Source of the DNA: Povalibacter uvarum
GTDB taxonomy: Bacteria; Pseudomonadota; Gammaproteobacteria; Steroidobacterales; Steroidobacteraceae
Reading direction: 5' to 3'
NCBI RefSeq assembly: GCF_014202975.1
Contig: NZ_JACHHZ010000006.1
Location: forward strand, 124,001-188,000
Length of the DNA: 64,000 nucleotides
The position numbers and the translations under genes are program-made. Shown piece by piece: positions 20,644-32,511 of this stretch. Position 1 is the stretch's first letter. The number at the start of each line of letters is the position of its first letter. The notes under the pieces were generated by a model. It was not told the DNA's origin. It saw only the letters and a list, made by a program, of their open reading frames with translations, and made no database searches.

Positions 20644-21660
20644 TCAGCGCAGAGGTTCGGCGAGATACTTCGCGAATGGCGTCGTCATCCGATGCTCGAG
20701 TCCATCGCCCTTCGCGACGATGAACAGCGCGGGGATCCGCAGCTTCTCCGCAAGTTCATAACCTTCATTCTCGCCCAGCACATTCAGCGCGGTGGCCCAG
20801 GCATCCGCTTCGAGCGCTGTCGGCTGCACGACCGCCACGGAAGCGAGTGCATGCTCGACCGGGCGGCCCGTACGCGGATCGATCGTGTGCGAGTAACGAT
20901 GGCCGTCGCGCATGACGTAGTGCCGATACTCGCCCGATGTGGTGATCGCCATATCGTCGATCTGCGCGATTGCGAACGGCTCAGGTTCGGCATCGACGGG
21001 ACGCTCGATCGCGATACGCCAGGCTGCGCCCTGTGCGTTGCGACCTCGTGCGCGGACTTCCCCGCCGATATCGATCATGAAGTTCGCGATGCCCAGAGCC
21101 TCGAACTTCGACGACAGCAAGTCGACGGCGTAGCCCGGTGTGACAGCGTTCAGGTCCACCGTCAGCTCCGGAATCCGCCTGCGAATCGCAAATGGCGTCT
21201 GCCGCACTTCGAGATTGCGATAGCCAACACGCGCTCTCGCCGCGGCGAGCGTCGGCTCATCGGGCAGTTCCTTCATCTCTCCCGCCGGCCCCATGCCCCA
21301 CAAAGTCACCAGCGGCGCCACAGTGATATCCAGCGCGCCACCGGATCGTTCACTCACGACCTGTGCCCCCGTAACGACCGCGACGAACTCACCCGACACG
21401 GCAAACCAGTCCGTCGTCCCACTCGCATTGAAGCGTGAAATCTCCGAATCGGGGCGGTACGCCGACATCTGTACGTCGATGGTCGCTAGAACGTCGTCGA
21501 TCGCAACACGCACGGCATGACTGTCGACTCCTTCCGGTGCACCCACGACCTTGACGGAATAGGTCGTGCCCATGGTGGGGCCGGAGAGATCGATGACGGG
21601 CGGCGGCTGATGGCAGGCGGTGACGAGGAATGCGAGCAGCGCAGCGAAGAGTCGGGGCAT
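20644..21660 (-). CDS. apbE: FAD:protein FMN transferase lipoprotein
   Basis: ApbE attaches FMN covalently to threonine or serine of target proteins outside the cytoplasm, or acts in flavin turnover. This 338-residue version has a lipobox (FLVTAC, Cys near residue 16) and the family motifs GPTMGTTYSV, GGALDITVAPLV...WG, and DIGGEVRARG, followed by a late YRHYVMRDGHRYSHTIDPRTG-type segment. ATG at 21660 places the lipobox correctly; an upstream in-frame ATG would not. It is the last gene of the cytochrome operon, 63 bases after the preceding stop. No clear flavinylation motif is seen in the operon's other products, so its target is unknown. Confidence 0.93.
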   Translation of the reverse strand: MPRLFAALLAFLVTACHQPPPVIDLSGPTMGTTYSVKVVGAPEGVDSHAVRVAIDDVLATIDVQMSAYRPDSEISRFNASGTTDWFAVSGEFVAVVTGAQVVSERSGGALDITVAPLVTLWGMGPAGEMKELPDEPTLAAARARVGYRNLEVRQTPFAIRRRIPELTVDLNAVTPGYAVDLLSSKFEALGIANFMIDIGGEVRARGRNAQGAAWRIAIERPVDAEPEPFAIAQIDDMAITTSGEYRHYVMRDGHRYSHTIDPRTGRPVEHALASVAVVQPTALEADAWATALNVLGENEGYELAEKLRIPALFIVAKGDGLEHRMTTPFAKYLAEPLR

Positions 21661-21723
21661 GGGAGCGTGACGAGGTGACGGACTGATCCCGTCAGTTCGC
21701 CACCCCATCGCGCCCCCTGTCAA

Positions 21724-23169
21724 TCACAACGTCTTCATGTACTCCAGCAACACTTCCTTGTCCGGCTCCGGCAACTGGGTCCCGAACAGATGCCCGCCAT
21801 TGCCGTTCGAGCGCTGGCTGACGTCGTGCTTCGTACCGGTCTCGCCAGCCTCGGCTTCGCTCGAGATGAAACCTACGTTCACGGGGTCGTAGACGTCATA
21901 GCCGCGCCAGAACACTGCCGGACGATCCGCGGGTGCCTTGAGCATGTCGCGCAATGTCGGCACTGAGCCGTTGTGGAGGTACGGAGCGCGCAGCCAGATG
22001 CCGTCGAGGAATGCGGGGTTGTAGCCGATGAGATCCTCCTCGAGGAGTCCCTTGCGGTCGATCCCGAACTCCTTGACCTTGTTGTTGGCCACGACGGCAT
22101 GCTCCTTCTTCCACGTCCAGAGCCGCTCCGGATCCGTATCGACGCCGCGCAACTCCATGCGCGTTCCTGTCAGCTCGCTCGCGTGGCAGCGGGCGCACTC
22201 GTGATCGAACACGGCTTTGCCCGCTGTTGCTTTCGCCTCGTCGATCGGCCACGGAAATTTTGGCGGCGCTTTCGCAGAGAGATAGTCCTGCAGCCATTTC
22301 ACCTCGGCGAGGAACTCCTCGTTGCTCTTCGGCCGCGCCCCGAGCAGGCCCAGCGCCGAATCGATGATCACCGAGTAGGTATCGTGGCTGTCGCCGGCCC
22401 AGTTCAGCGTGACCCGCTCGCTGTCGTACTTCTTCAGGTTCCAGATCGAAGGCATGTCGGTGGGGCCGATCGAATCGTCCATCGGCGTGTCCACCATGAA
22501 ATACTTGGTCAGGTTCATCGCATCATCGCGCCCCCGGCCCCACTCCGGGAAATCATGGCGGTAGATCCACTGGAACTGTTCTTCGCGCTCCAGCAGCCGC
22601 TTCTTCGTGATCGGGATCAGCACGAAGCGATAGATGGCGCTGTCGATCCAGGAGAGATCGGTCACCAGATCGATCTCGTGCATGAGATTGTCGGCGTTGA
22701 ACCGGGGATCCTTTGCGCAATCGACGAGGAACCGGAACATCGCTTCCAGGTTGAAAGTGTGCCCGGGTCCCGCGGTCACGAACGTCGGATTCTCATCGGC
22801 GATGCGCCGATAGCTGCCGGTATGACAGACAGCGCAGTTGTTGCCGATGCGCTCGAATCCGATCACCTTCTTCACGAAGCCGACCGGCAGCTCCTGTCCC
22901 TGCTCCCACGCAAATCCGAACGAAGCGAACCCGTTCGGCCCCGGAATCTTTTCCGGGAACATCCGCGGCAGTACGTAGAAGATCCAGTAGGGAATGCCCG
23001 CGTCACGCTCGCCGCCGATCGATCCGTACTTGAACCGCATCTCGGGATCGCCCGTTATCCACTCGGGCTGCGGCTCCTCGCGGAAGAATTTGTACCAGGT
23101 GAACAAACCACCGATGGCGATGAGCACCGTCAGTATGAGGCCGACGCGAAGCAGCTTCCGTTTGGTCAT
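21724..23169 (-). CDS. Diheme c-type cytochrome, peroxidase/RoxA-like (paralogue 1)
   Basis: A 481-residue periplasmic protein anchored by one N-terminal helix (about 7-26). It has two heme c sites, CAVCH (near 111) and CARCH (near 327). After the second comes the family block LRAPYLHNGSVPTLRD, typical of the bacterial diheme cytochrome c peroxidase / MauG / RoxA superfamily. A start block (FKYGSIGGERDAGIPYW) and an end block (GTQLPEPDKEVLLEYMKTL) are shared with the adjacent paralogue. ATG at 23169 has GAAGGAG upstream at good spacing. The reaction could be peroxide reduction or an oxygenase-type reaction; substrate not known. It lies 15 bases after the upstream gene in a tight operon. Confidence 0.88.
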   Translation of the reverse strand: MTKRKLLRVGLILTVLIAIGGLFTWYKFFREEPQPEWITGDPEMRFKYGSIGGERDAGIPYWIFYVLPRMFPEKIPGPNGFASFGFAWEQGQELPVGFVKKVIGFERIGNNCAVCHTGSYRRIADENPTFVTAGPGHTFNLEAMFRFLVDCAKDPRFNADNLMHEIDLVTDLSWIDSAIYRFVLIPITKKRLLEREEQFQWIYRHDFPEWGRGRDDAMNLTKYFMVDTPMDDSIGPTDMPSIWNLKKYDSERVTLNWAGDSHDTYSVIIDSALGLLGARPKSNEEFLAEVKWLQDYLSAKAPPKFPWPIDEAKATAGKAVFDHECARCHASELTGTRMELRGVDTDPERLWTWKKEHAVVANNKVKEFGIDRKGLLEEDLIGYNPAFLDGIWLRAPYLHNGSVPTLRDMLKAPADRPAVFWRGYDVYDPVNVGFISSEAEAGETGTKHDVSQRSNGNGGHLFGTQLPEPDKEVLLEYMKTL

Positions 23170-23184
23170 GATGACTCCTTCGGC

Positions 23185-24795
23185 CTAGAACGTCTTCAGA
23201 TACTCCACCAGCGCATCCTTTTCCTCGTCCGACAACTGCGTCCCGTACGCCGCGCCCTCATGACCGGCGTTCGAATTGCCGGGCTGCTTCGTGTCGTAGA
23301 GGAAGAAGTTCCGGCCGTACCGGCTCGCCTCCGTGTGGACGAAGCCCATGCGAACGGTGTCGTACACATCGTCGCCACGATAGAAAGTCGGCGGACGAGA
23401 GGCTGAGGGCTCGAGCAGATCGCGAAGCGTCGGCACCGAACCGTTGTGCAGGTACGGAGCGCGGAGCCAGACGCCATCGAGCGGCGCGTTCGCGTAGCCG
23501 AATGTCTTTCGATAGTGGCAGTAGCGATGCGGATAGCCGGCGTAGATCGTGCCGAGCTGCACGACGAGGTCGTAGCTGAACGAATCGAGACGATGCCGAT
23601 CGGTGCCGACGTCTTCGATCCGCGTGATCCGGCCGACGTAGGGACCATACAGCGCCGCGTCGTTCGGCTCACTCTTCAGGCAATCACGTGAAGTATCGCC
23701 GCCCGGCGGACTGAACTCGCGGCCATTCGTGCCGTGGCATCCTGCGCAGTAGTGCGCGTAGATCGGCTGGCCCTTCGCCGCGAGCGCCTGGTCGACGACC
23801 TCTGATTTGAGCTTCGGCGGCTCGGCCGTGAGCAGCCATTGTTCGATGCGGCCGATCGCCTTCAGGTCGATCGTCGGAGGCGTGGTGCCCGTACCGAACG
23901 CCGCATTCTTGTTCCGCTCCTCCGACATCACATTGTTCCCGTCCCAATGCAGCTGCATTCCTTGTCGCGGCTTCTGCAACCAGATGGATGGGAAATCGAC
24001 GGCCGCGTTGCGCTCTCGCGCGGCGATGCGATCGAGCGGGAAGTTGAACAGCACCTTGTTCGGGTTGAAGGTATCCGTGCGCCCCGGTCCCCACGGCGTG
24101 TCATTCAGCAGCGGACCGAAGCGCCCGCCCAGCATCGTGAGCCGCTCGCGCATCAGCCAGATCGCAACCGGGTAGACGAGGTGTCGATCGAGCACGCCAA
24201 GGTGCTCGCCGCGCTCCTCCATCGCTCTGGCGATCTCGGGAACGATCACGTCCTTGCGGAACGCGGGATCGGCGGAGCATTCGAACAGGAACTTCTGGAA
24301 GTCGAACAGGTTGAACGTATTCGCCGGCATGCCGAGCACGACGAGCGGCTTCTCCTCCGGCGTGTGGCGTACCGTGCTGACGTGACAGACCGCGCAGTTG
24401 ATGAATGTGCGGTCCATGCCGAGGTTGTGCCGCTTCGACATCCCGACCGGCAGGTCCCTGCCCTCTTCGTAGATGAAACCGAGCGACTCGTAACCCGCGC
24501 CCGGCACTGGCATGTGCTTCGAACAGACCCGGGGCATCACCTGGAAGACCCAGTACGGCAGCCCGGACTCCCGCTCGCCGCCCGTCGAGCCGTACTTGAA
24601 GTGTTCCCCGACGTCGGCGTATTCGACCGGACGATCGGCGGTGAAGCGCATCACGAGCAGCAGCGCCGTGATGACCGCGAACACGGTGATCATGATCAGC
24701 AGGATGAAGAGAATCCTCGCCCAGCGTCGCCTCAACAGCTGGGTCAGTGCGGAAGGCGCGAGGTCGCCGGACGTCGATGAGTATCGTTCGTTCAC
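23185..24795 (-). CDS. Diheme c-type cytochrome, peroxidase/RoxA-like (paralogue 2)
   Basis: A 536-residue paralogue of the next gene, with a transmembrane anchor (about residues 27-49), heme sites CAVCH and CAGCH, and the WLRAPYLHNGSVPTLRDLL block. Shared blocks with paralogue 1 run along the whole length, so the pair arose by duplication. I take GTG at 24795 as the start: a GGGAGGG ribosome site lies 5 bases before it, and it overlaps the upstream stop as GTGA, a classic translational-coupling arrangement. An earlier ATG at 24825 would overlap the previous gene by 34 bases and has no such site. A GREFSPPGGD insert after the second heme is not in paralogue 1. Confidence 0.88.
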   Translation of the reverse strand: MNERYSSTSGDLAPSALTQLLRRRWARILFILLIMITVFAVITALLLVMRFTADRPVEYADVGEHFKYGSTGGERESGLPYWVFQVMPRVCSKHMPVPGAGYESLGFIYEEGRDLPVGMSKRHNLGMDRTFINCAVCHVSTVRHTPEEKPLVVLGMPANTFNLFDFQKFLFECSADPAFRKDVIVPEIARAMEERGEHLGVLDRHLVYPVAIWLMRERLTMLGGRFGPLLNDTPWGPGRTDTFNPNKVLFNFPLDRIAARERNAAVDFPSIWLQKPRQGMQLHWDGNNVMSEERNKNAAFGTGTTPPTIDLKAIGRIEQWLLTAEPPKLKSEVVDQALAAKGQPIYAHYCAGCHGTNGREFSPPGGDTSRDCLKSEPNDAALYGPYVGRITRIEDVGTDRHRLDSFSYDLVVQLGTIYAGYPHRYCHYRKTFGYANAPLDGVWLRAPYLHNGSVPTLRDLLEPSASRPPTFYRGDDVYDTVRMGFVHTEASRYGRNFFLYDTKQPGNSNAGHEGAAYGTQLSDEEKDALVEYLKTF

Positions 24796-26840
24796 TGGAT
24801 CCCTCCCATCGATGCCGGCAGACACGTCGGCAGCGACTCGTAGCCTTTCGCGAGCAGACGATCGACAGAGGGCGGCTGCCCATCCCGCTTCTGCAGCAGT
24901 GCTTCGATTCGCGCCCGCAGTTCGACCAGCGCACGCTCATCGGCCGCGCCGCGATGCTTGTGATTGCGGCCGTCGAACACGAACTCCGGCGGCATCGGCG
25001 TCTTCACCCGTTCGCCGGCCATGAGGTCGCGCATCGCGAGCCGCACGAAAATTCTTGGAGCGCAGCTTTCGATCGCCAGCGCCGCGCGCTGCGATCCGCC
25101 GCTCAGAAAATTGGGCGGGGTCACCTCTTCTGTGTGGTGACAACTTCCGCACTGTGATTCGAGCGCGACGGTCAATGGATCCGCACTCGGGGCAACGGCG
25201 GAATAGCTGTCGACTCTGGCGTTCACAGGGAGCGCATCCCGGGCATCGGTCCTTGCAGTGACGACCTGGCTCAGCAAGTCGCTCCGGAGCGGCAACGGGT
25301 CGAAGGCATGAGCAGCCATCGACGCGGTGAAGTCGGAGAAATCCTCGCGCACGTCGAGATGAGCGACGCCGTCGCCCAGCGTCGTGCGCCGCAATTCGAT
25401 CCGTTCCAGCGAATCGCCATCGGGCAGTCGATCGTGCTGAGTGTCGCGAATCGTCAGTGTCATCGACGCCGCTGAGCGACTCACCGCGACGGGCAGGTGC
25501 CGCAAGGGCTGATGATTCCCGATCCGGATTTCATCGATCGTCCCGCGTGTACCGTCGAGCGTGCCTTTCAGACGGAGGGAAGCATCGCCGGAGCAATCGA
25601 ACTGCTCCTGTCTCACGGACCCCGAGATACGGCAACTTGCAGTAATGCGATGGCGCTTCGCCGGGATGCCTTCGAGCCGGGCTGTCAATATTGTCCGATC
25701 CCGCTCCGCCCAGAATTCATTCAGCCCTCGCACGAGCTCGTGCGCCATGCCACGACCATTCCCCACAGCAAGCGTCTCGAGCGGTGCACGCGGCACCAGC
25801 GGATCGAAACGGACATCGACGTTCGCAAGCGCGAGGCCTGTCATCTCGGCGGGAACGATCAGCGGATCGCGATTCGGAATATCGGGATCGGGCAGCGAGA
25901 GACCGGCGGGCCAGACCTCGGCCGCCCGCTGCGCGAGCCGCGCAACTACAGCAGCCTGGAAGTTCTCATCGCCATCGGCATAGCCGCGCTCGCCGGTGAG
26001 AGCAAACTGCAGCGAAGCAATGAACGCCGCGCGGCGACATCTCGTACCGGCGTCACCTTCGCCGCAGCCTTCAGCCCACAATCGCTGCGTGAGCATCAGC
26101 CGGTTGGCGCGATCCGTGGCGTCATCGATGCTCTGTGCGATATCCGTGTTGCCTCGGGCTTCGACGCTGGAGAACACCTTGCGCGCGGCACTCAGCCGGT
26201 CGGCGATCGCGGGATTCGCATTGGTCTCGAGCCAGACCTGCTGCGAGAAAATCGGTCCGTGATTCTGATGACAGGAAACGCAGACGGTCCGCCGCGCGTA
26301 GGTGGCTTGCGGTTGCTGGCCCGCCGCATAGTTGTCGACGATCTGGAATTCGAATCGTCCGAGCGTCTCGTTGTAGCTGATGACTTCCATGACGCTGGCG
26401 CGGTCCTGAAAGCCCAGGTACAGCCGGTCGCGCAGGAGCTTGCCGCCGCCGTCCTTCACCACCGCGGTCACGATGCGCGGATGAGCGAAGAAATCTGGTG
26501 AAGCCGCGACACGTTGCAGCGAACGTCCCAGCGGTACCAGCACTGAGCGAGTGCATGGCTGGGCGGCGCTGCATCCGGCCGCGGCCTCGATGCGCGCGAT
26601 CAGATGTTCGAAGGGAAACGGAATGTCCTGCCGGCCGTCCGGCCCGGTCGTGAGGCGATCGAACAGCGACATGCCCGCCGGCGGACGATCGGCTCCAGGA
26701 ATCATGGGATCGACCGTCCAGTCAGCTGCCCGCGTCGCCTGGCTGCCCAGACAGAGCAGCAGCGCCGCAAGGCATCCACTTGCGCTGAACGCCTGCCGTG
26801 CCGCGCGGCTCCGATGCGATGGCTTCGCAACATGCGGCAA
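24792..26840 (-). CDS. Secreted diheme c-type cytochrome of unknown family
   Basis: A 682-residue protein with a signal peptide (hydrophobic segment about residues 20-36, ending near TRA). It has two heme-binding CxxCH motifs: CVSCHQNHGPIF (near 190) and CGSCHH (near 567). Between them lies a long region with no motif I recognise. The C-terminal part (LAIESCAPRIF, RLAMRDLMAGERVKTPMPPE) resembles planctomycete/myxobacterial-type cytochrome segments that end in a PMPP loop. It lacks the YLHNGSVPTL block, so it is not a copy of its neighbours. Its stop codon overlaps the start of the next gene by 4 bases, and the preceding lipoprotein stop is 15 bases upstream. Function unknown; an electron-transfer partner is plausible. 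Confidence 0.8.
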   Translation of the reverse strand: MPHVAKPSHRSRAARQAFSASGCLAALLLCLGSQATRAADWTVDPMIPGADRPPAGMSLFDRLTTGPDGRQDIPFPFEHLIARIEAAAGCSAAQPCTRSVLVPLGRSLQRVAASPDFFAHPRIVTAVVKDGGGKLLRDRLYLGFQDRASVMEVISYNETLGRFEFQIVDNYAAGQQPQATYARRTVCVSCHQNHGPIFSQQVWLETNANPAIADRLSAARKVFSSVEARGNTDIAQSIDDATDRANRLMLTQRLWAEGCGEGDAGTRCRRAAFIASLQFALTGERGYADGDENFQAAVVARLAQRAAEVWPAGLSLPDPDIPNRDPLIVPAEMTGLALANVDVRFDPLVPRAPLETLAVGNGRGMAHELVRGLNEFWAERDRTILTARLEGIPAKRHRITASCRISGSVRQEQFDCSGDASLRLKGTLDGTRGTIDEIRIGNHQPLRHLPVAVSRSAASMTLTIRDTQHDRLPDGDSLERIELRRTTLGDGVAHLDVREDFSDFTASMAAHAFDPLPLRSDLLSQVVTARTDARDALPVNARVDSYSAVAPSADPLTVALESQCGSCHHTEEVTPPNFLSGGSQRAALAIESCAPRIFVRLAMRDLMAGERVKTPMPPEFVFDGRNHKHRGAADERALVELRARIEALLQKRDGQPPSVDRLLAKGYESLPTCLPASMGGIQ

Positions 26841-26855
26841 GCGGCGCCTCGTCAG

Positions 26856-27758
26856 TTATGAAGCCGACGCCATGAGCTTGCGTTCCTGCGTGCCGATCCA
26901 GCAATCCTCGGCGACCTTGCCGGTGTCCACGAAGGCGTCGCTCTGGCTGCCGGCGATCTCGTGGTTGTACAGCGTGAAATTCAGCAGGAACGCTTTGCCG
27001 GCGTAGGCGCGGCCCAGGTAGAAGCCCGGTCGGACCATCCGGATTTCGTCGCGGATCTGGAAACCATTGCGCCCGGCGAGATAGTCGGGTCGCTCGCGAT
27101 AGCCGGGCAGCTCATCGGTGAACGCGTAGTCGATGATGATCGACTCGCGACGCGAATCGATCAGGCTCTGCCCGCAATAGAGCTTCGCGGGAAACAGCAG
27201 CCACTGATCCTTGCCGCCGACGTTGATCTTCTCGATCGTCGAGAGGTCGTCATCGATGATGGGCTTGAGCGCGGCGAGATCCTCGATCCGGTTGCGCAGG
27301 ATTCGCGTATCGCGATCGAACACCTTGCCGCGCCAGAGTTGGGCGCCGAGTGTCTCGAGCTTCTGGGATTTCAGCTCGACGGCAAGCCCGGGAAGCCCGC
27401 CGACGATCTCCGAGATGCGCCGGTCGCGCTTCGAGTTCTTCGGAAAGAACAGCGCGCCGTCGAATGCCGCGTCCGGAATCGGGCCGGCCGTCAGTCGCGC
27501 GTAGATCTGATCGACCTGTTCCTGCGAGTAGTTCGCGATGTTCTCCGGCGTGAGCTTCATCAGGTCGGCCGGCGCCAGCGGGAATTCGTGCTCGATACGC
27601 GCGAAGTCCGGCTTCTGCAGGTATCGCTCGCCCGCTTCCGCGAACTGCAGCTTCGGCGGCGGGTGGAGCTTCGAGCGTATCCAGTCGCATCCCGTCAGCG
27701 GCAGCATCGCGACCAGCACGATCGCCAGCGTCCCTGAATGTTTCATCGGCGTCTTCAT
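26856..27758 (-). CDS. Lipoprotein of unknown function in the cytochrome operon
   Basis: A 300-residue protein with a lipoprotein signal (LPLTGC, Cys near residue 24), followed by a soluble domain containing repeated short charged segments (SKRDRRISEIVGGLPGLAVE, KDQWLLFPAKLYCG). There is no CxxCH motif and no recognised domain. It lies 18 bases after the large cytochrome gene and 15 bases before the next cytochrome gene, so it is very probably cotranscribed and works with them at the inner face of the outer membrane or in the periplasm. A second ATG at 27746 is an alternative start. Confidence 0.75.
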   Translation of the reverse strand: MKTPMKHSGTLAIVLVAMLPLTGCDWIRSKLHPPPKLQFAEAGERYLQKPDFARIEHEFPLAPADLMKLTPENIANYSQEQVDQIYARLTAGPIPDAAFDGALFFPKNSKRDRRISEIVGGLPGLAVELKSQKLETLGAQLWRGKVFDRDTRILRNRIEDLAALKPIIDDDLSTIEKINVGGKDQWLLFPAKLYCGQSLIDSRRESIIIDYAFTDELPGYRERPDYLAGRNGFQIRDEIRMVRPGFYLGRAYAGKAFLLNFTLYNHEIAGSQSDAFVDTGKVAEDCWIGTQERKLMASAS

Positions 27759-27776
27759 CGCTTGTGACCTCGCGCC

Positions 27777-30353
27777 TTACATCGTCGCCAGGAACGCCGT
27801 GAGCGCCTTCTTGTCCTGCGCGGACAAGCCTTCGCCGAACCGGTGCCCTTCGTTCTCGACTGTCGCGGTACAGGAGCTGTATGCCCCCAGCAGGAAGGGA
27901 CGCTTGCGGATTTCATCGATCATCGTCGAGGGATCGCGCATGATCTCGGTGCGCACTTCGTTCAGCGCCTTGAACACAGTGCCGCCATCCTTTTCCCCAA
28001 GCGACTTGTTCAACTGCGCGTGGAGCTCGTCGGGCCGCAGGGCCGACAGCACGAGATCGTCCGCGAAGCGCTTGTGCTGGAAGTTACCCAGCGCACCGGC
28101 GGTCGCTCCTGCGGGAATGGTTACGGAGAAGCCCACGACCTGACGCTCTTCCTTCCCATCCCACAGGCGCGGTCCGAATGCGATCGGCACGTCGTCACTG
28201 AAGCGCGTGATCTTCGGCACCCGCTGATCCGGATTCAGCAGATCGTTCATCGACGCCTTGTAGAGATCGAAGCGCCCCTTGACGCTCGGATCGAACTTCC
28301 AGCACGCGGGCACCGCATCGCCTGCGAGTGCTTTGCCCTGTGCGTCCGCAAACGGCGATCGATAGAAGTCGTTCGCGGCGTTTGCCGGCTTGCCGCACAG
28401 CTCGGGGCCGAGCGCGTTGTTGTGCAGGAAGGGCGCATGAGCCCACAGGCTGAGCAGCGAGATATTGCGGTAGTAGCCTCGGCCGCCATCGCTCGCTTCC
28501 TTGACGGCAGTATCCGCGGGCCGACTGCGCAGCGTCTCCGAGCCGTATTCCTGCCACACGTGATCCTTCATGTGATTCGTGTGCAGCGCGCGGCAGCGGA
28601 ATGTTCCGACGCCGGACACGGGTGTCGCCTGATCGTTGCCCAGCCAGTCAGCGCGCAGCCCCGTCTTCGCATCGATGGCCGCAAAGTCGCGGTTGGCGAA
28701 CGGCCCGCCATCCTTCTCCGCGATACTCGAGTGACACCGGGCACAGTTGCCTGCGAATACTTCGCGTCCGCGCGCCACCGAGCCCGCACCGAATTCACGT
28801 TCGAGATCGGCGATGAAGGACTGTCGCGTATAGGTCCCTCGCGGATTCGACTTCTTCAGCTCGTTCTCGCGCGCCACCTGCAGATCCGTCGCATGCGTCT
28901 CTGACGACGTCAGGAAGTTCATGATGTCCTGCAGCCGGTCCTCGATCGCGCGGAAGTTCGGGCAGTCGCGGCGGCACTGGCCGATGTCGAACGGCGTCTG
29001 GCCGAAGTTGCGCTGCTGAGGATCGATCTGCCGCAGATCGGTCAGATGATTGACCCAGCACTGCTCGGCGCACGAGCCGATATTGAAATACACGCGCTGG
29101 ATCGCCTCGAGCGCGCCGATCGAATCCTCACCGCCCTTCAGGATGTGATGGACGGTCTCAGTGCGGGTGCCGCGCTGCCAGCATTTCCCTTCGTGTTCGC
29201 ACCAGCACGCCTCGGTTCCTCCCTGCTTCGCCTGGCCCTCGCCCGCGGGACACGCCTCTACCTTGCGCCATTTGTCGACCACTTCGTCCTGGAACGTCGG
29301 CCGCTGGTGAATGTTGATGATCGCGTTGATCGTGCCGGGGTTGTTGATCTGATCCGTCGGCACCGCGGAGGTGTCCGATGTTCCCGGCCGGGCATGCGAG
29401 AACACCTGGAACTCGATATCCGAGGGCGTCATGCCGGAACTCAGGATCTCCGAAATGCGCGTGTACTGATTGCCGACCGCGCCTTTCAGATTGGCCCACT
29501 GCGGATGCGCGGGATCGGCCGGCGGATTGAGCGGATCGAATGCGATGTGGCAGGAGCCGCAGGAGATGCCGATCAGGAACGGCGGCTCCACGGAACCATC
29601 GGCGAGCCTGCTCACGTGCGAATCGCTGTTCGCCTTGTCGTTCGACAATTTGCCGTTGTAGCCGGACCAGTTCGCGGCGGTGCCGTTCAATGCGAGCCAT
29701 CGCTCACGATTGAAACGCGGATTCGGAAACTTGCGGATGCCCAGCGCGCCGGTCGATGTGCCGAAGGCGAGATCGCACGACGACTGCCGCTGATCCTTCG
29801 TCCGGTTGTGCACATCGTTCGTATCGGCCGGCGCGTCTTTGAAATCACACGCCGGATCGCGATAGCCCTCGCGGCCCACGAACTGCAGCAACTGTTCGTC
29901 GCCCGGGCACCAGTCGAAGCCGTAAGTGTCATCGGGCGACTTCGCGGGACAATCTTGCGAGCCCGGAACGCAGCAGCCCGGATCGTTGATGATGCCCCAC
30001 GCAGCGAAGCGATCGCTGCGCTCGTCGCTGCGAAGGACGCGATACCAGTCGATCAGCACGCCGACGCGCTGCTGAAACGTATAAGTGTGGAATCGGGAGT
30101 TGCCGGCGGTCGACTTGTACCAGATCTCGCGCCCCGCCCGTTCGGACGGGTTGAGCGTCGCTTCGCCAAGGTAGAAGCCGGGATTGTCGAGCACCGGCGA
30201 TTGTGCAGGTGCTGTCGCCTGTGTCGGCGGCGGCGCGGGCTGCGCGTCCGCTTCCGGCAACGGTCCTTTGTCGCCCGCGCAGTTGTTCAGAAGGACGGCG
30301 AACAAAAAGCTCGCCGAGATCAGCACTCCGCCGATGACCACGCCACGTTCCAT
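27777..30353 (-). CDS. Large cysteine-rich diheme c-type cytochrome, first gene of the operon
   Basis: An 858-residue protein starting at an ATG with GGAGGAG about 5 bases upstream. An N-terminal hydrophobic anchor (about 4-22) leads into a Pro/Ala-rich linker. Two heme sites are visible, CGSCH (near 255) and CARCH (near 540), then WAHAPFLHNNALGP, the counterpart of the APYLHNGSVPTL block of the smaller paralogues, and an end block LSAQDKKALTAFLATM. Between the hemes lies an insert of roughly 280 residues rich in cysteine (ACWCEHEGKCW, CAEQCW, QCRRDCP), likely held by disulfides. It belongs to the same broad superfamily as paralogues 1 and 2 but is much larger. Substrate unknown. Confidence 0.82.
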   Translation of the reverse strand: MERGVVIGGVLISASFLFAVLLNNCAGDKGPLPEADAQPAPPPTQATAPAQSPVLDNPGFYLGEATLNPSERAGREIWYKSTAGNSRFHTYTFQQRVGVLIDWYRVLRSDERSDRFAAWGIINDPGCCVPGSQDCPAKSPDDTYGFDWCPGDEQLLQFVGREGYRDPACDFKDAPADTNDVHNRTKDQRQSSCDLAFGTSTGALGIRKFPNPRFNRERWLALNGTAANWSGYNGKLSNDKANSDSHVSRLADGSVEPPFLIGISCGSCHIAFDPLNPPADPAHPQWANLKGAVGNQYTRISEILSSGMTPSDIEFQVFSHARPGTSDTSAVPTDQINNPGTINAIINIHQRPTFQDEVVDKWRKVEACPAGEGQAKQGGTEACWCEHEGKCWQRGTRTETVHHILKGGEDSIGALEAIQRVYFNIGSCAEQCWVNHLTDLRQIDPQQRNFGQTPFDIGQCRRDCPNFRAIEDRLQDIMNFLTSSETHATDLQVARENELKKSNPRGTYTRQSFIADLEREFGAGSVARGREVFAGNCARCHSSIAEKDGGPFANRDFAAIDAKTGLRADWLGNDQATPVSGVGTFRCRALHTNHMKDHVWQEYGSETLRSRPADTAVKEASDGGRGYYRNISLLSLWAHAPFLHNNALGPELCGKPANAANDFYRSPFADAQGKALAGDAVPACWKFDPSVKGRFDLYKASMNDLLNPDQRVPKITRFSDDVPIAFGPRLWDGKEERQVVGFSVTIPAGATAGALGNFQHKRFADDLVLSALRPDELHAQLNKSLGEKDGGTVFKALNEVRTEIMRDPSTMIDEIRKRPFLLGAYSSCTATVENEGHRFGEGLSAQDKKALTAFLATM

Positions 30354-30699: not shown

Positions 30700-32511
30700 A
30701 TGGCAAAGCAAGGCGCCGGATCGACCAGAAGGTCGGTCGAACACAAGACGCTGGCGGGGTTCGCGCTCGCGGGCGCAGTCCTGTTGATGGTCATCGGCGC
30801 AGCCTGGCTCGCCGCGGCAACCTTCGTCGGCACTGCCCGCCATGTCCGGGCTTCCATGGAGATCGTCACGGCGTACGAGCGATTTCGCTCCGCCGCGGCC
30901 GAAGTTGCCGCCAATCAATACGGCTGGCTGGGAAGCCAGGAACCCCAGTTCCTCATCGAACGCAACGCCGCGCTCAGTGCAGCAAGGCAACAGGTCGACC
31001 TGCTGCGCGTGCGCATTCCCCAGGGCGAGGTCGAGCGACAGCGCAACGTCGAAGTATTGAGCGCGGCGCTCGAGCAAACCGTCCTGGCGCCGGCACTCGA
31101 GGCCTCGGCAACGCCGCAATCCCAGGGCAGTCCGGTGTGGACACAGTTGCAGGGCCAGACCGTCGAGCTGCGTCGCGTCGTCGATGGGGCCATGGCTCCG
31201 GAGCGTGCGCTCTACCGATTGCAACTGATCAAAGCGCGCACCGCGATTCGCTGGCTCTACGCCACCGTCGCCATCGCCGCTGTAGTGATGTTGCTGGCGC
31301 TCGCATGGCTGCTGCTGCGCATCCGCCTCGACTTGCGCGAACGCGGGACCGTCGAACAGAACCTGCAGCAGGCCAACCGTCTGCTCGAATCGTTGCTCGA
31401 GAGCATCCCTGCAATGGTCTTCGCAAAGGACGCGCACGACCTGCGCTTCGTCCGCGTCAACCGCACGGGCGAGCAGCTGCTCGGATTGAATCGCGAGGAG
31501 CTGATCGGCAAGAACGATTACGATTTCTTCCCCGCCGACCAGGCCGATCACTTCATCGCGAAGGATCGCGAGACGCTGGCCTCGGGGAGCATCGTCGTCA
31601 TCCCGGAAGAGAAGATCGACACGCGTGATCACGGCAGACGCACGCTGCACACATTCAAAGTGCCCGTGCGCGGCGACGACGGCCAACCCATGCTGTTGCT
31701 GGGCATTTCTCTCGACATCACCGAACAGAAGGAAGCCGAGCGCCGCATCGTCGCGCTGAACGAAGAGCTGACGCGCCAGGCCCAGCTCCTGCAATCGAGC
31801 AACGAGGAGCTCGAAAGCTTCTGCTATTCGGTATCGCACGATCTGCGCGCGCCATTGCGCGCCATCAACGGCTACGCACGGTTGCTCGAGCAGGACTACG
31901 GCCCCCGCTTCGACACGGAAGGTGCGCGCTACCTGCGAACCATCTGCAACGCATGCGACCGCATGGCGCAGCTGATCGACGATCTGCTCGAATTCTCGCG
32001 CATCGGCCGACAGACACTGGAACTCGAACCCGTCGACATGGAAGCGATGGTCGGCAAGGTGATCAATGATGCCGTCGGCGGCCGGAACGAGCCTCCGCCA
32101 GTCATCGAAACGAGCGCGCTGCCTCCCGTCCGCGGCGATCGCAACATGCTGCAGCTCGTCTGGCTGAACCTGATCGACAATGCGGTGAAGTACACGACCG
32201 GTGTGAATGCACCGCGTATCAGCATCGAAGCCGAGCCCGGCGCCAACGAGATCGTCTACTCGGTGACGGACAACGGCATCGGCTTCGACATGCAGTACGC
32301 CGACAAGCTCTTCGGTGTCTTCCAGAGACTGCATTCCGACTCGCGCTTTCCGGGAACCGGCGTCGGCCTCGCGATCGCACAGCGCATCGTCGCCCGGCAT
32401 GGCGGCCGGATCTGGGCGAGCAGCGAACCCGGCCGCGGTTCCCGATTCAGTTTTGCAATGCCGACCGATCAGCGCCTGACCCAGGGCGAACCCCTGGCGG
32501 CCGCGGGCTGA
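30700..32511 (+). CDS. Orphan membrane histidine kinase with PAS domain
   Basis: A 603-residue sensor kinase. Two transmembrane helices (about 18-43 and 185-208) enclose a periplasmic helical domain of about 140 residues. A PAS domain follows (about 225-345; FVRVNRTGEQLLGLNREEL, ending in LLLGISLDITEQKEAE), then a HisKA domain with SVSHDLRAPLRAINGY (His near 380) and a HATPase domain (NLIDNAVKYT near 493, GTGVGLAIAQRIV near 565). It has the phytochrome-like kinase type of dimerisation helix. No response regulator is adjacent. It is divergent from the cytochrome operon, so it may sense a signal relevant to it; that is only a positional guess. Confidence 0.93.
   Translation: MAKQGAGSTRRSVEHKTLAGFALAGAVLLMVIGAAWLAAATFVGTARHVRASMEIVTAYERFRSAAAEVAANQYGWLGSQEPQFLIERNAALSAARQQVDLLRVRIPQGEVERQRNVEVLSAALEQTVLAPALEASATPQSQGSPVWTQLQGQTVELRRVVDGAMAPERALYRLQLIKARTAIRWLYATVAIAAVVMLLALAWLLLRIRLDLRERGTVEQNLQQANRLLESLLESIPAMVFAKDAHDLRFVRVNRTGEQLLGLNREELIGKNDYDFFPADQADHFIAKDRETLASGSIVVIPEEKIDTRDHGRRTLHTFKVPVRGDDGQPMLLLGISLDITEQKEAERRIVALNEELTRQAQLLQSSNEELESFCYSVSHDLRAPLRAINGYARLLEQDYGPRFDTEGARYLRTICNACDRMAQLIDDLLEFSRIGRQTLELEPVDMEAMVGKVINDAVGGRNEPPPVIETSALPPVRGDRNMLQLVWLNLIDNAVKYTTGVNAPRISIEAEPGANEIVYSVTDNGIGFDMQYADKLFGVFQRLHSDSRFPGTGVGLAIAQRIVARHGGRIWASSEPGRGSRFSFAMPTDQRLTQGEPLAAAG

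Follow-up and report, generated by a model that had tools for sequence, protein, structure and literature searches.

A conserved five-gene unit of RoxA-type diheme cytochromes and a lipoprotein in Povalibacter uvarum with a possible role in oxidizing a hydrophobic compound within the cell envelope

A 64,000-nucleotide stretch of the 6.32-Mb genome of Povalibacter uvarum (G000; contig NZ_JACHHZ010000006.1, positions 124,001 to 188,000; hereafter the window) contains six same-strand genes, which run on the minus strand from 30353 to 20644 in the order BigCyt, Lipo, Cyt682, CytB, CytA, and ApbE according to their open reading frame coordinates (Table 1). The first five, encoding four diheme cytochromes and a lipoprotein, form a conserved block whose co-occurrence across genomes is far beyond chance. 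We tentatively interpret this block as a self-contained set of envelope enzymes that moves between genomes horizontally and would oxidize a hydrophobic, probably lipid- or terpenoid-like substrate. An initial annotation had listed all six genes as one operon; its gene positions held, and the gaps it gave (18, 15, −4, 15, and 63 bases) were reproduced when recalculated from the coordinates. Its description of the products as four diheme cytochromes, a lipoprotein, and ApbE agreed with Pfam and with the number of CXXCH motifs, which is two in each of BigCyt, Cyt682, CytB, and CytA and zero in Lipo and ApbE.

Conservation and probable transfer of the five-gene unit

We searched a collection holding one genome per species with a BigCyt alignment and kept the best 80 of 136 related stretches as loci, including those of the congener G002 (L043) and of G277 (L057). 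The presence of each of the six window proteins in these loci was called by tblastn, and loci were counted as eligible when enough sequence lay downstream: at least 1.2 kb for Lipo (76 loci), at least 3.2 kb for Cyt682 (68 loci), and at least 6.5 kb for all five genes (61 loci). Lipo was present in 76 of 76 eligible loci and Cyt682 in 67 of 68. The exception, L117, has in that place a 790-amino-acid (aa) open frame with two CXXCH motifs, a candidate Cyt682 homologue. All five genes were found in 54 of the 61 eligible outside loci, 52 of them with the window order BigCyt–Lipo–Cyt682–CytB–CytA on one strand, and in two Acidobacteriota loci (L113 and L114) the CytB–CytA pair is upstream of BigCyt–Lipo–Cyt682. 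The seven incomplete loci are L054, L058, and L060 of Nitrosomonadaceae, L057, L120, L108 of Nitrospira, and L117. Nitrosomonadaceae and Nitrospira keep BigCyt–Lipo–Cyt682, and L108 has only a CytA-matching fragment. The block thus consists of two submodules, BigCyt–Lipo–Cyt682 and CytB–CytA.

The five-gene unit occurs in Pseudomonadota and Acidobacteriota, and its three-gene core in Nitrospirota. By record title, approximately 50 of the 80 loci belong to Rhodocyclales (Thauera, Zoogloea, Accumulibacter, Dechloromonas, Aromatoleum, and others), and Pseudomonas, Rivibacter, and a Moraxellaceae are among the rest. The five genes are present in isolates of Thauera, Zoogloea, Aromatoleum, and Pseudomonas, and the three-gene core in Nitrosospira. 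The system is uncommon: of 274 genomes spread over the class, 9 gave BigCyt matches, mostly of distant forms, and Lipo was found in two of 148 relatives searched, G000 and G002. A gene fusion of BigCyt and Lipo in L104 was discarded, the sequence there being a run of N. Of 78 loci, 16 (by title Zoogloea and its close relatives) have a LysR gene ca. 133–189 bases upstream of BigCyt. It was not accepted as a block member, because the 16 copies are closely homologous to a single gene (73–100% identity) and are read as lineage-specific.

The proposal that six proteins travel together thus holds for five genes and fails for ApbE, which was found in only one of the 80 loci, that of the congener. ApbE matches were obtained in all 14 genomes of the genus (13 at 47–100% identity, and only 29–30% in the 75% complete G007), whereas CytB was found in 2 of 14. 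At eight block-free loci of the genus (L199–L205 and L207), apbE keeps its glnE-side neighbours; the full glnE–tonB–…–sir2–M20–apbE order was seen in four of them, parts of it elsewhere, and glnE only in G009. In G004, a homologue of the kinase gene that borders the block lies ca. 500 bases or less from apbE with no block between them, representing an empty site. As matches to the kinase were limited to 3 of the 14 genus genomes, the empty-site argument relies on G004. The 13/14 versus 2/14 distribution, the neighbours kept without the block, and the single occurrence among the 80 loci place ApbE outside the unit; apbE is a resident gene of the genus and not a sixth member of the block.

A maximum likelihood tree of BigCyt was built from 37 rows, namely the window, 32 loci picked by hand from 78 usable ones, and four distant rows. 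The window and G002 rows grouped with two Nitrosomonadaceae (support 99/95). This group falls within a clade of 24 rows (98/93), whose remaining members, where named, are beta-proteobacterial apart from Pseudomonas and a Moraxellaceae. The gammaproteobacterial L053, L057, and L120 and the beta-proteobacterial L044 and L055 fell outside this clade, where some forks are weak. This placement, together with the patchy presence within the genus, argues for movement of the block by horizontal transfer. The G+C content of the block (0.632) equals that of its flanks (0.632 and 0.641), so the transfer either was not very recent or came from a genome of similar composition. A recent genomic island was therefore not supported by composition, and transfer is argued from the tree and the patchiness only.

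Within the block, CytB starts with GTG and overlaps the Cyt682 stop codon by 4 bases, and GGAGGAG stands just before the ATG of BigCyt. A terminator scan gave no terminator-like site in the intergenic gaps (8 matches versus a shuffled mean of 5.6, standard deviation 2.4), and a promoter scan gave no consensus sites. No RNA family reached its gathering threshold in the 64-kb window, no matches at E ≤ 0.01 were obtained in PHROGs (three proteins) or PADLOC (five proteins), and a plasmid search with Lipo as query returned none.

Table 1 Genes of the conserved block and the genes bordering it in the window.
Gene	Position	Strand	Description
BigCyt	27777..30353	−	858 aa; CXXCH at 265 and 537; 23 Cys; first gene of the block
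Lipo	26856..27758	−	300-aa lipoprotein; lipobox LTGC; without known family
Cyt682	24792..26840	−	682 aa; CXXCH at 187 and 564; without known family
CytB	23185..24795	−	ca. 536 aa; RoxA-type diheme; N-terminal hydrophobic anchor
CytA	21724..23169	−	481 aa; RoxA-type diheme; N-terminal hydrophobic anchor
apbE	20644..21660	−	FAD:protein FMN transferase family; directly downstream neighbour, outside the conserved block
PAS/histidine-kinase gene	30700..32511	+	Divergent; borders the block on the BigCyt side

Families and heme pockets of the block proteins

CytA and CytB both carry the RoxA-like domain PF21419 of Pfam, in line with the initial annotation of their genes as duplicated RoxA-like cytochromes. 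However, their scores against the NCBIfam RoxA, RoxB, and RoxC models were 42, 57, and 66 bits (CytA) and 54, 50, and 79 bits (CytB), compared with cut-offs of 1000, 900, and 900 bits. The RoxA (1282 bits) and RoxB (1084 bits) of the same genome, used as positive controls, passed. These models had no match at E ≤ 0.1 to BigCyt, Cyt682, or Lipo. CytA (160.7 bits) and CytB (188.2 bits) exceeded the 150-bit cut-off of NF040606 only just, full-length members scoring ca. 400–610 bits, and BigCyt (30.7 bits) remained below it. NF040606 is widespread, with matches at E ≤ 0.001 in 83 of 274 genomes of the class, 14 of them above the cut-off. No block protein matched CCP_MauG of Pfam at E ≤ 0.1, and TIGR04039 (MbnH; cut-off 362.85 bits) gave 14.6 bits for CytB and 12.0 bits for CytA, with a MauG model listed for neither. 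Hydropathy predicts an N-terminal hydrophobic anchor in both proteins, a further difference from RoxA, RoxB, and RoxC.

We mapped RoxA residues by aligning CytA and CytB with the RoxA and RoxB of the genome, using published positions (PMC10837239 and PMC6797691). Alignment A6 recovers the published RoxB Val at W302; RoxB is shifted in a larger alignment, and the CytA and CytB columns are the same in both. Residues were counted in the larger alignment, in 65 CytB and 62 CytA rows, including two rhizobial pairs and the pair-only loci L164 and L167. As in RoxA, the equivalents of H195, H394, and H641 are present (65/65, 65/65, and 64/65 in CytB; 62/62, 62/62, and 61/62 in CytA; the misses are gaps), and the His of the PYLHNGSVP-type MauG motif is found in 65/65 CytB and 61/62 CytA (one gap). 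In contrast, F301 of RoxA is replaced in every ungapped row, by His in 65/65 CytB and by Asn in 59/62 CytA. CytB keeps W302 in 65/65 rows and F317 in 61/65 rows. CytA has Tyr (39/62), Phe (10), Trp (8), or Leu (4) at W302, with one gap, and Leu (60/62) or Ile (2) at F317. Ala occupies position 316 in 63/65 CytB and 62/62 CytA. In the window, CytA has Asn/Trp/Leu and CytB His/Trp/Phe at positions 301/302/317, and neither CytA nor CytB combines F301, W302, and F317. The distal F317 of RoxA is thus retained in most CytB and lost in CytA; RoxA variants at F317, including F317L, lose bound O2 (PMC6797691). The sixth ligand of the second heme is the RoxA-type His in every ungapped CytA and CytB row. 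In CcpA-type peroxidases, this ligand is a Met, and the Met for which the initial annotation had suggested looking is not there.

A tree of 40 rows comprised 16 CytB, 16 CytA, RoxA, RoxB, and six full-length NF040606 members. CytA and CytB were set apart from RoxA, RoxB, and the NF040606 members by long branches, the node uniting the CytA rows with the CytB rows had a support of 83/76, and the six NF040606 members formed a separate clade. The rhizobial CytA grouped with CytA (86/92), and the placement of the rhizobial CytB was without resolution. Grouping the non-rhizobial CytA and CytB together without the rhizobial rows was rejected (approximately unbiased test, p-AU 0.0014). These results show that CytA and CytB stem from an old duplication kept in tandem, the long branches limiting deeper claims on their ancestry.

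BigCyt has a cytochrome c match in Pfam. Its C-terminal heme domain aligned with a CytA/CytB/RoxA profile in hhalign (probability 98.9, E = 1.2e-17), and the aligned region holds the GHxFG His, H837, kept in 27 of 27 aligned BigCyt sequences where a CcpA-type enzyme would have Met, and an APFLHNN form (PFLHNN variant) of the MauG motif. By this sequence kinship, BigCyt is a distant member of the RoxA/CCP superfamily, which agrees with its earlier designation as a larger, Cys-rich relative. The designation of Cyt682 as a different diheme type was likewise confirmed: its hhalign probabilities against the BigCyt and CytA/CytB/RoxA profiles were 8 and 24, giving no detectable kinship, and its Pfam cytochrome matches were sub-threshold. 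The confident AlphaFold2 model of Cyt682 (predicted local distance difference test score, pLDDT, 84.9) had no match in PDB at E ≤ 0.001. It includes a beta-rich insert (ca. residues 395–500) that the four aligned distant homologues lack and that is weakly similar to small barrels (2q03, bile-acid-binding protein).

Lipo, noted initially as a lipoprotein without known domain, indeed has no Pfam family, and a sequence search of PDB gave no match at E ≤ 0.1. A lipobox-like motif was detected in 71 of 76 loci with a loose pattern, and Y86, W142, Y211, Y220, Y247, and Y252 are invariant in 31 aligned sequences. The best PDB match of its AlphaFold2 model (pLDDT 82) was 4mve with E = 6e-4, a weak match (root-mean-square deviation 10.3 Å, TM-score 0.28/0.51), and the next matches were mostly retinoid-, fatty-acid-, and bile-acid-binding proteins at E = 0.03 and above. 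The lipocalin/calycin superfamily has an eight-stranded up-and-down barrel with a ligand cavity, and on the basis of the model Lipo is tentatively considered lipocalin/calycin-like. In L164 (7525–11007), a 165-aa open frame that matches part of Lipo (29%) stands ahead of the CytB–CytA pair, which points to a larger family with Lipo as one branch.

Proposed function and alternative explanations

In the proposed scheme, in which every enzymatic step is inferred, the whole pathway would be membrane-anchored at the periplasmic face. The putatively lipocalin-like Lipo would hold or present the hydrophobic substrate. CytB, with an open N-terminal heme that presumably has His and Phe at its sides and connects to the second heme through the invariant Trp, would activate O2 or peroxide and oxygenate the substrate. 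CytA, in whose pocket the O2-stabilizing Phe is lost and the Trp usually replaced by Tyr, would carry out a second step, e.g., isomerization or reduction of the oxygenated product. BigCyt and Cyt682 may carry electrons or perform further oxidation. The earlier suggestion of a surface or periplasmic oxidative pathway of RoxA/peroxidase-superfamily cytochromes fits the sequence evidence, with the chemistry conjectural and with five genes instead of six.

By analogy, the closest functional precedent for CytB/CytA is the FadCcp pair PA2077/PA2078 of Pseudomonas aeruginosa, compared here through published residues. Both are tandem pairs of RoxA-related diheme c-type proteins, periplasmic in FadCcp and predicted to be so here. 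PA2077, which retains the Trp of RoxA, is a 10S-dioxygenase that forms a fatty-acid hydroperoxide, and PA2078, a 7,10-diol synthase with Ser at this position, converts this product into a diol (PMC4496055); the diol-synthase activity of P. aeruginosa is periplasmic (PMC5155153). Similarly, the inter-heme Trp is kept in CytB and mostly replaced in CytA. On the other hand, 8 of 62 CytA, including that of the window, still have this Trp. Both FadCcp proteins have Gln at the RoxA-301 equivalent, and PA2077 has Lys at that of RoxA-316 (PMC4496055), whereas the block has His/Asn and Ala, respectively. The block also adds the N-terminal anchors and three extra conserved genes.

The gene context of distant relatives, in which the cytochrome genes stand beside those of lipid enzymes, speaks for a lipid-like substrate. 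Around L164, L167, L157, L158, L160, L023, and L025, genes were picked by a simple composition rule, not a gene finder, and the rhizobial Pfam annotation covers the pRL11 proteins. Rhizobium johnstonii pRL11 and Sinorhizobium fredii pSF45436e (L155 and L156) share a seven-gene order of NADH:flavin oxidoreductase (OYE), CytB, a 143/144-aa protein, CytA, BigCyt, GMC oxidoreductase, and patatin-like phospholipase, possibly a sister pathway. Several members of this set are annotated as hypothetical proteins. BigCyt relatives adjoin a GMC gene in L025 and L028, with a divergent patatin gene in L025, and in L157 a full-length NF040606 gene has a patatin gene as its neighbour. The three incomplete Nitrosomonadaceae loci carry, next to the block and convergent to it, a GMC oxidoreductase gene and another BigCyt-like stretch. 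L024, L026, L027, and L029 have BigCyt with a shorter Cyt682 homologue, followed in the latter three by two further conserved genes, of which one in L026 weakly matches Temptin_C.

Several points weigh against lipid oxidation by the block. The 78 BigCyt loci tested had no patatin or flavin oxidoreductase match, and GMC was found only in the three Nitrosomonadaceae loci, so that the association with lipid enzymes is drawn from distant relatives; in addition, tblastn gave no Lipo match in the distant BigCyt loci L023–L029 or in the rhizobial loci. A rhizobial pair breaks the pocket rule, with Leu at 317 in CytB and His/Trp/Ile in CytA. The N-terminal heme domain of BigCyt is too divergent for reliable alignment with RoxA, leaving two competing readings of its distal pocket (L405/R420 or W433/F450), Cyt682 is placed in the scheme without a specific role, and the 4mve match of Lipo is weak. 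Finally, the distal His of CytB differs from the Phe of RoxA and the Gln of FadCcp and would also suit a peroxidase.

For this last reason, reduction of peroxide or hydroperoxide is the main rival. CytB and CytA would then be membrane-anchored diheme peroxidases defending against peroxide or lipid hydroperoxides, with electrons arriving via BigCyt and Cyt682. We consider this rather unlikely: the scores above the cut-off of NF040606, a family named di-heme-cytochrome C peroxidase, and the invariant His (65/65) of a type suiting peroxide cleavage fit it, but the family name is a label and not a tested function, CCP_MauG was not matched, the second heme has the RoxA-type His in place of the CcpA-type Met, and five genes are more than a simple peroxidase needs.

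An electron-transfer or respiratory module, in which a cytochrome chain takes electrons from a periplasmic dehydrogenase (of the GMC type in relatives) with no oxygenation, is unlikely. It would account for the GMC oxidoreductases adjoining BigCyt relatives in several lineages and for a diheme Cyt682 without PDB fold match; however, just 3 of the 78 loci tested have a GMC match close to the block, and the open-site heme pockets of CytA and CytB, whose residues are specific to each paralogue and nearly fixed, look catalytic.

In the MbnH–MbnP and MauG–methylamine dehydrogenase systems, a diheme enzyme is encoded beside a non-heme partner, a position that Lipo, without heme motif and present in 76 of 76 eligible loci, would occupy here. 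Maturation of this type, in which the diheme enzymes oxidize conserved Trp/Tyr residues of Lipo to form a cofactor or metal site, would be consistent with the invariant aromatic residues of Lipo and with the inter-heme Trp kept in CytB. It is nonetheless improbable, as CytA and CytB score far from the MbnH cut-off with no MauG model listed, the rhizobial and other distant gene sets have no Lipo match, and the block differs from both systems in its anchors and paired enzymes.

A six-gene operon in which ApbE flavinylates a block component is largely refuted by the distribution and synteny of apbE given above and by a search for a flavinylation-type motif, which found none in the five block proteins, although ApbE, 63 bases downstream on the same strand, could be co-transcribed in the window and in G002, where it also follows CytA. 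Rubber degradation is also an unlikely role, since genuine RoxA and RoxB are encoded elsewhere in the genome and, by record title, approximately 50 of the 80 loci belong to Rhodocyclales, for which we know of no rubber link.

Other diheme loci of the genome and significance

Because a genuine RoxA gene is present in L123 (contig C5, 5517–7535), just upstream of a nitronate-monooxygenase-family gene, and a genuine roxB in L124 (contig C1), the strain has both rubber oxygenases. Directly upstream of roxB (L124, 2886–7697) are genes for a molybdopterin-cofactor dehydrogenase large subunit (738 aa) with, by eye, a Tat-like N-terminus and for a 179-aa protein with, by eye, Cys patterns of the [2Fe-2S] type. 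This pair is a candidate for extracellular oxidation of the rubber-cleavage aldehyde, a step for which a need has been described (PMC5979037). In L125 (contig C5, 4888–8222), a MauG/MbnH-like diheme protein, below cut-offs with 52 bits to TIGR04039, adjoins a vanadium-chloroperoxidase-domain protein.

By sequence, CytA and CytB belong to a known superfamily, lie outside the RoxA, RoxB, and RoxC models, and lack the published FadCcp residues. In the papers cited, the characterized substrates of RoxA-type diheme oxygenases are rubber and monounsaturated fatty acids (PMC4496055 and PMC10837239); the function of RoxC is called unknown, and unsaturated fatty acids have been suggested as its substrates (PMC10837239). 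No paper on this gene set was found in the open-access literature searched, outside which most subscription papers lie. The block may therefore represent an undescribed, transferred five-component envelope pathway, in which a substrate-carrying lipoprotein would feed a two-enzyme RoxA-type cascade together with two further cytochrome families, a view we hold only provisionally. If this is true, RoxA-type oxygenation chemistry, so far comprising rubber cleavage and the synthesis of diols from oleate, would gain a third lineage, and Cyt682 and Lipo would be two new protein families. A defined, conserved unit in cultured isolates opens the question of the substrate to experiment and gives two proteins without family assignment a testable context.

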